Source: Candidatus Nanopelagicaceae bacterium
Lineage (GTDB): Bacteria > Actinomycetota > Actinomycetes > Nanopelagicales > Nanopelagicaceae
NCBI GenBank assembly: GCA_947490625.1
Contig: CANLHC010000002.1
Span: 1 to 45,095, forward strand
Reading direction: 5' to 3'
Length of the DNA stretch: 45,095 nucleotides
Positions within the stretch are counted from its first letter, which is position 1, and every line of letters begins with the position of its first letter. The position numbers were made by a program, and so were the translations under genes. The notes below the pieces were generated by a model. That model searched no databases. It saw only the letters and a program-made list of their open reading frames with translations, and was not told where the DNA came from. Below, piece by piece: positions 28,704 to 33,342 of this stretch.

Positions 28704-30692
28704 ATGGCATCTATCAATATCACGGTCGACGGCGTTGCCCGTAGCGTTGAATCAGATCAGCGCCCGACCCATATCTTCGCTGAAGATAAGTCAATTGTGG
28801 TTGCCCGAGTCAATGGCGAACTACGTGATCTTTGGAGCGAACTCAAGGATGGTGATGTAGTAGACGGTGTAGCCATCTACTCTCCCGATGGTCTTTCAGT
28901 TCTGCGACATTCAACTGCTCACGTTTTGGCACAAGCTGTGCAGCAAACTTTTGCGCAGACTCGATTGGGTATCGGACCTCCGATACGCGATGGGTTCTAT
29001 TACGACTTTGAGCCAGAGCGCCCTTTTACTCCAGAAGATCTCGAGAAGATCGAAACAACAATGCGCAAGATTGTTAAAGATGGCCAACGTTTTAAACGCC
29101 GGGTTACAACAGAGGCTGATGCCCTCAAAGAACTTGCACACGAGCCATATAAGTGCGAACTCATTGGAATTAAATCTGGTGGAAATGAAGAGACAAGTGT
29201 CGAGGTGGGTGGTTCCGAGCTCACCATTTATGACAACTTAGGGCGAGATGGCGAACCAGTCTGGTCGGATCTATGTCGCGGGCCCCATCTTCCCTCAACA
29301 AAACTTATCCCTGCATTTAAGTTGATGCGAAGTGCCGGTGCATATTGGCGTGGATCTGAAAAGAATCCAATGTTGCAACGTATCTATGGCACTGCATGGC
29401 CATCCCAAGATGAACTCAACGCTTACCTAGAAATGTTGGCCGAGGCGGAAAAGCGAGATCATAGAAAATTAGGACAAGAGTTAGATCTCTTTTCATTTCC
29501 GGAAGAGATCGGTTCTGGCCTTGCCGTCTTTCATCCCAAGGGTGGAATCGTGCGACGGGCTATGGAAGATTATTCGCGTAAACGCCATGAAGATGAGGGT
29601 TACGAGTTTGTTTACTCGCCTCACATAACCAAAGCTGCGCTCTTCGAAACTTCCGGCCACCTCGAGTGGTATGCCGAAGGAATGTACCCTCCAATGATTC
29701 TGGACGAAGAGCATCATGCCGATGGAACGATTAAGCGCGCTGGCCAGCAGTACTACATGAAGCCGATGAATTGTCCTTTCCACAACCTGATCTATCGCTC
29801 ACGCGGGCGTTCTTACCGGGAGCTTCCTTTACGACTCTTCGAATTCGGAACGGTATATCGCTACGAAAAATCTGGCGTACTCCACGGAATCACCAGAGCG
29901 CGTGGCTTTACCCAAGATGATGCGCACATTTACTGCACGAAGGATCAGATGGCGGGAGAGCTTGATTCCCTCTTAACCTTCGTACTCAATCTGCTCCGTG
30001 ATTATGGGCTGGAAGATTTCTATCTTGAACTTTCAACGCGTAATCCAGAAAAATCTGTGGGATCAGATGAAGATTGGCAAGCTGCAACTGAAGCGTTACG
30101 CAAAGCGGCTCTCGCTCAGAATTTAGAGCTGATTAATGACGAAGGTGGGGCAGCGTTTTACGGTCCAAAGATTTCTGTCCAAGCAAAGGATGCGATAGGT
30201 CGCACATGGCAGATGTCTACGATTCAAGTAGATTTCCAATTGCCGCAACGTTTTGAACTCGAATATGCCGCATCCGACGGAACGCGTGCACGCCCTGTCA
30301 TGATTCACCGCGCACTCTTTGGCTCAATCGAAAGATTCTTTGGGGTTCTTACAGAGCATTACTCTGGAGCGTTTCCTCCTTGGCTTGCGCCAGTTCAAGT
30401 AATGGCAATTCCGGTCGCTGATGCATTCACTGATTATCTCGGCGATGTGGTCAAGGCTCTGAAAGCCGCTGGAATTCGCGCTGAATTAGATGCCTCTGAT
30501 GATCGCATGCAGAAAAAAGTGCGTAATGCGCAGATGCAGAAGATTCCTTACATGCTCATTGCTGGCGAGGAAGATCAGAAAGCCGGAGCTGTCTCCTTCA
30601 GATACCGAAATGGCGAACAGAAGAATGGTGTGCCACTAGCTGAAGCAATCGCTGAAATCTCTGCTGCAGTTCAATCGCGCGCTCAGGTTTAA
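28704..30692 (+). CDS. thrS: Threonyl-tRNA synthetase
   Basis: TGS domain, [57 protein letters not shown]. Confidence 0.98.
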
Positions 30693-30694
30693 TT

Positions 30695-31219
30695 GTGGAT
30701 TACATCGACTCGACGGGAATGCCAGATGCCTGGTCACGCCTGTGGGCACCGCACCGTCTCGATTATCTGCGTGGAGAAAATCGTCCGTTAGATAGTAATA
30801 ATCAGAGCTGTCCCTTCTGTGATATTCCGGCGATGAGCGATGAAGAGGGTTTGATTGTTCATCGCGGAGTTCATGCTTATGTAGTCATGAACTTATATCC
30901 GTACAACCCAGGACATTTACTGATCTGCGCCTATCGCCACGTTGCAGATCTCACTGATTTAAGAGATGACGAACGGCAAGAGATCTTTGCTCTCACTGCC
31001 CACGCCATGAAAACCATTCGCACGGTTTCCAAGCCAGAAGGTTTTAATCTCGGGATGAATCAAGGCGCAATCTCTGGCGCCGGTGTTGCTGCCCATATTC
31101 ATCAACATGTTGTACCGCGTTGGTCAGGGGACGCAAATTTCATGCCCATCATTGGGAAAACAAAGGTGCTTCCGCAACTACTTGGAATTACGAGAAGTGA
31201 GATAGCCGCGGCTTGGTAG
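30695..31219 (+). CDS. HIT-family hydrolase/phosphorylase
   Basis: CPFCDIP, NLYPYNPGHLLICAYRHVADLTDL, AAHIHQHVVPRW. Confidence 0.93.
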   Translation: MDYIDSTGMPDAWSRLWAPHRLDYLRGENRPLDSNNQSCPFCDIPAMSDEEGLIVHRGVHAYVVMNLYPYNPGHLLICAYRHVADLTDLRDDERQEIFALTAHAMKTIRTVSKPEGFNLGMNQGAISGAGVAAHIHQHVVPRWSGDANFMPIIGKTKVLPQLLGITRSEIAAAW

Positions 31220-31221
31220 TT

Positions 31222-31827
31222 TTACTCGTCAGCTAGCTGATCGAGATACGAGGTAAGAACATCTAATCCAATTCCACTATCAAGGTTTATTGGAATTGCC
31301 GGGAAGAGCATTCCTGCTGAGAATGCACCCTCACCGGCTTGCGAAAGAGCTTCTATGTATTCTGCCTGAAAATCAGAAACTAATTCGCGATGCTCGCTTT
31401 CGCTTTCGGATATCACAGCGATGCCTGCAACGTAATTTCGAACTGTAAGGTCGGCGAGAGAGATCAACGCAGCCGGAGTCCCATCATCGGCATGAAGAAC
31501 AAGATAGGGAGTCACGAGCTGATCGAGCACTCGATTTCCCAAGAGGACTGCATCATCAAAATCTAAATCGGTACCGGGTAAAGCGAGTGCAACAAATATG
31601 CGCGGCGTAAGATAATCGTTAAGCCTCTCCCAATGGGCAATCGTCTCGCCATCGATTCCCGCCGACGGATTGACGGCGAATATCGCACAATCAATATCTG
31701 CCGGATCGCCATCATTATCTTGAACGTCGACTCCTCGAGCCTCGAGTTCGCGCCTGAGCGCTGCGGGAGTGGCGCTGATATGACCATAGAGGGCAATTCT
31801 CACAGCCTTGGATGTGGAAGTTGTCAT
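31222..31827 (-). CDS. Unknown protein resembling a degenerate EF-G-type GTPase domain
   Basis: 201 aa; [16 protein letters not shown] aligns with the EF-G P-loop region; later segments also align in order (see findings). Confidence 0.6.
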   Translation of the reverse strand: [201 protein letters not shown]

Positions 31828-31851
31828 GGGTTAAAGCCTACGATGGTGCCG

Positions 31852-32454
31852 ATGATTAGCGTGCATGTGAAACCTCAGATCACCCGATTAATTAATCCAG
31901 TGGTCAAAGCCGCTGTGCGCTTGGGGATTACCGCCAATGCCGTAACTATTACTGGCGGGCTAGGCACTGTGATAGCTGCACTCTATTTCTATCCACGAGG
32001 AGACCTTTTCGTAGGCACGATCGTGATCTCACTCTTTGCATTAAGTGATTTATTCGATGGAGCGATAGCCCGACGAACTGGTGGCGAAGGAACTTCGTGG
32101 GGAGGGTTCCTTGATTCCACAATTGATCGAGTGACGGATTCGGCAATACTCATCGGTGCACTTCTTTACTTTGTTGATGAGGATAAAACGATTGCCCTCT
32201 TCGTTCTGATCTCACTAGTGGTCAGTGGATTGATTCCATATATCCGCGCCAAGGCCGAAAGCATGAAAATTGAATGCAATGGTGGAATCGCAGAACGCAC
32301 AGAACGGTTAATCATCGCGCTCACTGCACTTGGATTTTATGGTTTGGGAGTAGACATAGCAGCAATGATCGGGTTCACACTCCTTGCATTTCTGGGAACG
32401 GTGACGGTCATTCAGCGAATAGTGATTGTCTATCGCGCACTGCGTAAGGAATAG
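31852..32454 (+). CDS. pgsA: Phosphatidylinositol phosphate synthase-like CDP-alcohol phosphatidyltransferase
   Basis: DLFDGAIARRTGGEGTSWGGFLDSTIDR matches the DGxxAR...GxxxDxxxD motif; adjacent to acyltransferase and PimA-like genes. Confidence 0.9.
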   Translation: MISVHVKPQITRLINPVVKAAVRLGITANAVTITGGLGTVIAALYFYPRGDLFVGTIVISLFALSDLFDGAIARRTGGEGTSWGGFLDSTIDRVTDSAILIGALLYFVDEDKTIALFVLISLVVSGLIPYIRAKAESMKIECNGGIAERTERLIIALTALGFYGLGVDIAAMIGFTLLAFLGTVTVIQRIVIVYRALRKE

Positions 32455-32457
32455 TCA

Positions 32458-33342
32458 ATGAAGGATTTCATTATCGCTCGTGCCTACTTTCTAGGCTGGA
32501 CATTGATTCGACGTATGCCTGAGAAATCGGCTACCAATCTTTTTCTATGGCTAGGGTCTCGCATGCTCAAAAAGAATGGAAGAAGTGTCAAGAGATTGCG
32601 CTCGAACTTAGCTCGTGTAAATCCGTTGTTGCAGGCGGATGAACTACAAAATCTGATAGCACAGGGTGTCATGTCCTATATGCGTTATTGGCGCGAAACA
32701 TTCCGATCACCTGACTGGACCAGAGAGAGAATTCTTTCGACGGTAACGGTGAGCAATGAGCATCTGTTGATGGATCCAATTAATTCTGGAAGCCCAGTGG
32801 TGGTTGCCCTTCCACATGCTGGCAATTGGGATCATGCCGGTTCGTATTTCTGCCTCAAGGGTGCGAAGCTGGTTACCGTTGCCGAGGTTTTGAAGCCACG
32901 CGCTCTCTTTGAAAAATTCCTCGAGTACCGGCAAGCGATAGGAATGGAAGTGTTGCCTCTGGATAGCAACGCTTTCGGCACTCTGCTGGAACGTGCGCAA
33001 GAGGGGAAGTTGATCGCGCTAGTGGCCGATCGAGATCTTTCTCGAAGCGGTATTGATGTGAGATTTTTTGACGGCACGGCGCGAATGCCGGCCGGCCCCG
33101 CCCTTGTCGCCATTCGAACTGATTCGCCTCTTGTTACTGCCTTTGTTTCATACACACCAAGTGGGATTCATATCCAACTCGATGCGATAGAGATTCCAAC
33201 TGTTGGTGATGAAGATGCCAAGGTGAAGATCGTCGTGCAACGCTGTGCTGATAATTTTGCAGTAGGTATCTTGAAGAATCCAGAGGACTGGCACATGATG
33301 CAAAGAATTTGGGTTGACGATGATTTTGTAGGTAGATCATGA
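32458..33342 (+). CDS. Phosphatidylinositol mannoside acyltransferase (LpxL/HtrB-like)
   Basis: ALPHAGNWDHAG (HX4D), LVADRDLSRSGIDVRFFDGTARMPAGPALVA. Confidence 0.9.
   Translation: MKDFIIARAYFLGWTLIRRMPEKSATNLFLWLGSRMLKKNGRSVKRLRSNLARVNPLLQADELQNLIAQGVMSYMRYWRETFRSPDWTRERILSTVTVSNEHLLMDPINSGSPVVVALPHAGNWDHAGSYFCLKGAKLVTVAEVLKPRALFEKFLEYRQAIGMEVLPLDSNAFGTLLERAQEGKLIALVADRDLSRSGIDVRFFDGTARMPAGPALVAIRTDSPLVTAFVSYTPSGIHIQLDAIEIPTVGDEDAKVKIVVQRCADNFAVGILKNPEDWHMMQRIWVDDDFVGRS

Follow-up and report, generated by a model that had tools for sequence, protein, structure and literature searches.

The closest described relatives of the gene reported here are translation factors of the EF-G type. EF-G2 (FusA2) of M. 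smegmatis has no ribosome-dependent GTPase activity, and it is not clear what actinobacterial EF-G2 does in the cell (PMC3150367). Bacteroides EF-G2 and other EF-G paralogs work without GTP hydrolysis (cited in PMC12775393). Glutamates of the G' subdomain of EF-G contact the L7/L12 stalk (PMC8446442).

Here, we describe a 201-aa protein that is almost certainly descended from an actinobacterial EF-G2, of which it represents the G domain. Its gene lies in a window (the whole stretch of DNA that was analysed, 45,095 nucleotides) from a genome (G000) that groups with the genus Candidatus Planktophila in Ca. Nanopelagicaceae (family f1), very abundant lake bacteria that dominate lake plankton.

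The gene, its relatives and its lost motifs

Translation of the window gives an intact ORF that starts with ATG and runs from 31827 to 31222 on the minus strand. The features of the locus, in window coordinates, are:

31222..31827, minus strand: EF-G2-derived pseudo-GTPase ORF, 201 aa (translation, NCBIfam EF-G2 match, family conservation, AF2/Foldseek)
31762..31785, minus strand: P-loop (G1) relic, aa 15-22, GHISATPA for GHSGAGKT (alignment with full-length EF-G2)
31696..31737, minus strand: deletion site of switch I and the DTPG switch II (~55-60 EF-G2 residues), aa 31-44 (alignment)
31339..31695, minus strand: aa 45-163, homologue of EF-G2 profile positions 102-220, kept by almost all truncated lineages (NCBIfam match and profile matches of truncated forms)
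31576..31587, minus strand: G4 relic, aa 81-84, LALP for TKLD (alignment with full-length EF-G2)
31330..31572, minus strand: G' subdomain, aa 86-166, best-conserved part of the short family (segment identities)
31336..31398, minus strand: helix A of G', aa 144-164 (AF2 secondary structure); nearby E159, Q163 and E166 align with the L7/L12-contacting glutamates reported for EF-G (PMC8446442)
31835..31840, minus strand: TAGGCT, candidate -10 box of a leaderless transcript, 7 nt 5' of the start codon (conserved TANNNT upstream; abuts the opposite-strand pgsA start)
30695..31219, plus strand: HIT-family gene, convergent neighbour and marker of the ancestral EF-G2 locus (synteny)
31843..32454, plus strand: pgsA-like gene, divergent neighbour and marker of the ancestral EF-G2 locus, start at 31843 or 31852 (synteny, sequence)

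The pseudo-GTPase gene lies antisense within the co-directional run thrS-HIT / pgsA-LPLAT-pimA (window 30695-32454), with gaps of 2 bp to HIT and ~15-25 bp to pgsA, and read-through from HIT to pgsA would run antisense to it. An Rfam scan of 30600-32500 gave no match.

The resemblance of the 201-aa protein to EF-G is far above chance. The profile search matched translational GTPases: the NCBIfam model NF009377 (EF-G2) matches aa 45-163 with E=9.9e-11 (next-best family, 0.18) at 40.7 bits, below its curated cut-off of 890 bits, and it matches 50/50 aligned members of the short family (best 3.8e-20). Pfam GTP_EFTU gave an insignificant 0.13 against the 201-aa protein alone, and annotation by Pfam only would therefore overlook the relation to EF-G. 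A profile of the 50 short-family members, searched against the PDB, retrieved ribosome-bound M. smegmatis EF-G2 (9k0z; 6.7e-17), the T. thermophilus EF-G homologue 1wdt (5.4e-10), and S. aureus EF-G (1.6e-6). The AlphaFold2 model (pLDDT 92.8, pTM 0.89) has an EF-G-like fold, and the best 50 PDB matches found with it by Foldseek are all of EF-G or RF3 type (TMq up to 0.81). There is no Pfam or NCBIfam model for the short form itself, and a search of the open-access literature, incompletely covered, found no description of the Planktophila short form.

An earlier sequence-only reading had aligned the protein by eye to an EF-G G domain along its whole length; a MAFFT alignment with full-length EF-G2 reproduces that residue alignment, and the generic EF-G parent it proposed is correct as to type and is here sharpened to EF-G2 (FusA2). 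Its further claims, that the P-loop, DTPG, and NKxD are all replaced or lost and that domains II-V are absent, agree with the MAFFT alignment and with the length of 201 aa. In that alignment, the GHSGAGKT and TKLD of EF-G2 correspond to GHISATPA and LALP; ~55-60 residues that carry switch I (with the qqRSV-type G2 motif; PMC3150367) and DTPG are missing, and the stretch that links the G' helix to the last core strand has lost ~24 residues. No G1 (GxxxxGK[ST]), G3 (DxPG), or G4 ([NT]KxD) motif occurs in the 201-aa protein or the sampled short forms, except for a chance-like NRWD in L133, and no short-form ortholog restores GKT or NKxD. On its predicted fold and alignment, the 201-aa protein would be a pseudo-GTPase, in that the GTPase fold is kept, the nucleotide motifs are lost, and the protein is under selection. 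Lacking domains III-V, it is expected not to translocate; lacking the nucleotide motifs, it is expected not to switch on GTP.

The same reading had also assigned the gene a putative promoter of its own. A sigma-70 consensus scan gave no promoter (and a consensus terminator scan found no terminator), but 41 of 47 distinct upstream regions of relatives carry a TANNNT that ends 5-9 nt short of the start codon, compared with 7.5% in shuffles. The conserved TANNNT is what a leaderless actinobacterial promoter would be expected to show, and would be its candidate -10 box; because the box abuts the opposite-strand pgsA start, its conservation may serve pgsA instead. Between the divergent starts, CATCGTAGGCT (window 31835-31845) is strongly conserved across the family, and it spans both the putative -10 box of the pseudo-GTPase gene and, read on the reverse strand, the region of the pgsA start codon.

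An EF-G2 ortholog shrunk at its ancestral locus

The description of the gene as an orphan does not hold. The contig search with the single 201-aa protein gave one relative only, the closest named one (86% identity; a Candidatus Planktophila MAG, L031), and a search across genomes yielded far more. In Ca. Nanopelagicaceae, the protein was matched in 181 of 201 genomes, in 95/98 good genomes, and in all 17 genera, which include one with full-length EF-G2 (g38) and one with a longer truncated form (g29). These matches are almost always free of internal stops. Family genomes that lack a match (e.g., G100, G146, and G248) gave EF-G/IF-2-type matches only, and the absence there may reflect gaps in the assembly or loss of the gene. 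With the same query, other families of the class yielded full-length EF-G2.

tBLASTn with the window genes shows the order thrS-HIT-x-pgsA-LPLAT-pimA, usually followed by pdxS, at short-form loci, where x lies on the opposite strand; among the loci of other families for which flanks are present, most show this same order around full-length EF-G2. Thus, the position x is occupied by EF-G2 in many Actinomycetes and by the ~200-aa remnant in Nanopelagicaceae. Other matches in complete genomes of the family come from frames the size of EF-G (~701 aa) or IF-2, so these genomes show no further full EF-G2 elsewhere. The 201-aa gene is an ortholog of EF-G2 (fusA2) that has shrunk at the ancestral locus to a compact G-domain remnant. 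Two short-form loci, L003 (2080-2800) and L072 (5872-6755), have ~0.7-0.9 kb of extra DNA between the HIT and pseudo-GTPase genes.

With respect to INTERMEDIATES and convergence, genus g38 of the family retains a complete EF-G2 at the locus (L126, a 749-aa frame), with GHSGSGKT, DTPG, and TKLD present and all five EF-G Pfam domains. In the sister genus g29, the locus holds a ~320-aa form without the motifs. A tree built from neighbouring genes joins g38 with g29 (0.99) and places the pair as sister to all remaining genera of the family (1.0), which requires at least two truncation events within it; the g29 short form arose independently of the main one. The ~100 C-terminal aa that follow the G-domain remnant in g29 (L127-L130) have a predicted beta-alpha-beta-beta-alpha-beta order, which would be compatible with EF-G domain III or V; a by-eye likeness of this tail to domain V was confirmed by neither Pfam nor hhalign, and the AF2 model of the ~320-aa protein is poor (pLDDT 48).

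At least three further families contain truncated EF-G2 forms that keep the same segment (EF-G2 ~98-215): f34, f39, and f32 have truncated frames of ~230-420 aa at the same locus. Some of these stand beside relatives with full EF-G2 in the tree (L165 next to L138/L139, and L144 next to L140/L155/L156; support 1.0). There are nine all-truncated clades if no regain is assumed; because some nodes are weak, partly those outside Ca. Nanopelagicaceae, and gene transfer may have contributed, we claim only at least five independent truncations. Almost all truncated forms match the EF-G2 profile from ~85-102 to at least 208-220, the exception being the divergent L131, which matches positions 158-213 only. 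Three forms of f34 (L155, L156, and L167) have a P-loop and TKLD/TKVD and lack DxPG; they perhaps represent an earlier stage of truncation and are possible nucleotide-binding intermediates. In genus g88 of f39, full-length EF-G2 lies away from the thrS-HIT-pgsA locus (L160 and L161), indicating that the gene was relocated. L159 was left out of the set, as it is canonical EF-G.

Selection and candidate function

The intact frame, which the sequence-only reading took as a sign of retention, is matched by constraint on the protein. Pairwise NG86 comparison of 24 pairs gives a median dN/dS of 0.080 for the short family, compared with 0.044 for HIT, 0.073 for pgsA, and 0.059 for LPLAT; truncated forms elsewhere give 0.03 (g81), 0.09-0.17 (g29), and 0.18 (g89), from few pairs, some with high dS. 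An alignment of 50 diverse short-family sequences has 21 invariant columns. The short form is under purifying selection in nearly all Nanopelagicaceae, and there is very little doubt that it is retained as a functional protein. The sequence-only reading had suggested a non-GTPase function, such as regulation of the ribosome or of a GTPase partner, which would be one candidate role.

Mean pairwise identities in the N-core, the next segment, the G' sheet, the G' helix, and the C-core are 0.35, 0.48, 0.57, 0.51, and 0.52 in the short family, and 0.78, 0.75, 0.59, 0.68, and 0.69 in full-length EF-G2; the two sets differ in depth, and it is the ranking of segments that is meaningful. The G' sheet ranks lowest in full-length EF-G2 and highest in the short family, of which the N-terminal core is the least conserved segment. 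By this measure, constraint has shifted from the nucleotide core (0.78 to 0.35) to the G' subdomain (0.59 to 0.57).

These patterns are most simply read as those of a module that binds constitutively, either at the ribosomal stalk or to a translation factor. As the best explanation, we propose an EF-G2 ortholog reduced to a G' module that binds bL12 or a translational GTPase, with a probability of roughly 0.4. The EF-G2 remnant would have turned into a nucleotide-independent binding module of which G' is the best-conserved part; it would bind the C-terminal domain of bL12 or another translational GTPase and, once bound, would tune factor recruitment or ribosome idling without a GTPase cycle. 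Because domains III-V are missing, it would stay out of the A site. This stalk or GTPase-partner mechanism is put forward tentatively. The putative L7/L12-contact positions E159, Q163, and E166 are acidic in 35/50, 20/50, and 43/50 aligned short-family sequences, respectively; only the first and third are thus mostly acidic, a pattern that hints at stalk binding but does not prove it. On the G' helix, F153, E156, and Y157 are (nearly) invariant in the short family and differ from EF-G2, so the putative partner surface has changed. Repeated independent trimming to nearly the same piece suggests that the piece has a job of its own. It is a rather doubtful generalization that the G' segment of EF-G2 has its own GTP-independent role, probably at the stalk, and that several lineages of Actinomycetes independently pared the ~700-residue EF-G2 to this segment, giving rise to a convergent class of stand-alone ribosome-regulating pseudo-GTPases.

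The changed and (nearly) invariant F153, E156, and Y157, together with acidic contacts kept only in part, could also reflect a new role outside translation, such as that of a scaffold or ligand-binding protein, in which the conservation of G' would mark a rebuilt fold rather than stalk binding; we regard this as rather unlikely. The EF-G2 segment retained is the same across independent lineages, and persistence of an old EF-G2 interaction would account for this more easily. Pseudo-GTPases often regulate true GTPases, and in complete relatives the one other strong match is canonical EF-G (~701 aa), as would suit an off-ribosome partner subunit of canonical EF-G (or of EF-Tu or IF2), for example a pseudo-dimer or nucleotide-exchange regulator; however, we know of no pairing of EF-G G domains, and the probability of such a partner is low. 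There is a slight probability that the short form is a sensor with non-canonical binding of a guanine nucleotide or alarmone: its Rossmann-like core fold is retained and L155, L156, and L167 still have nucleotide motifs, but neither the 201-aa protein nor the sampled family has any of G1, G2, G3, or G4, and conservation is lowest in the N-terminal core. Finally, despite the loss of all GTPase motifs and four domains, the small genomes of the family, and the recurrence of truncations, an EF-G2 pseudogene in decay with a still unbroken frame has a negligible probability, being ruled out by a dN/dS (0.08) like that of pgsA together with conservation across the family, and opposed by the ORF intact across 17 genera, the invariant columns, and the confidently predicted fold.

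Nature has, in effect, run a deletion experiment on EF-G2: its repeated reduction to a single segment indicates which part carries the retained function. The locus follows a translation factor on its way to a pseudo-GTPase with full-length and intermediate forms surviving, and a small soluble protein of ~200 aa makes the question directly testable.

Comparison with known systems

Like Bacteroides EF-G2, the short form is derived from EF-G and dispenses with the GTPase cycle; unlike that paralog, which is a translocase (cited in PMC12775393), the short form has no translocation domains. With EF-G2/FusA2 (EFG II subfamily, qqRSV G2 motif, NF009377), it shares the HIT-pgsA locus, the strand, and the fold across aa 45-163, and its members are all matched by the EF-G2 model; it differs in length (201 residues vs. 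~710), in the absence of the P-loop, switches, NKxD, and domains II-V, and in scoring far under the model cut-off (40.7 vs. 890 bits). With canonical EF-G (FusA1), a separate gene in relatives, it shares the G-domain and G' fold, whereas the GTPase motifs and translocation domains are lacking. With pseudo-GTPases generally, it has in common a G-domain fold, lost nucleotide motifs, and retention of the protein; to our knowledge, no other pseudo-GTPase is a stand-alone EF-G remnant, and the best-conserved part of the short form is the EF-G-specific G' insert. The short form is unusual for its convergent reductions.
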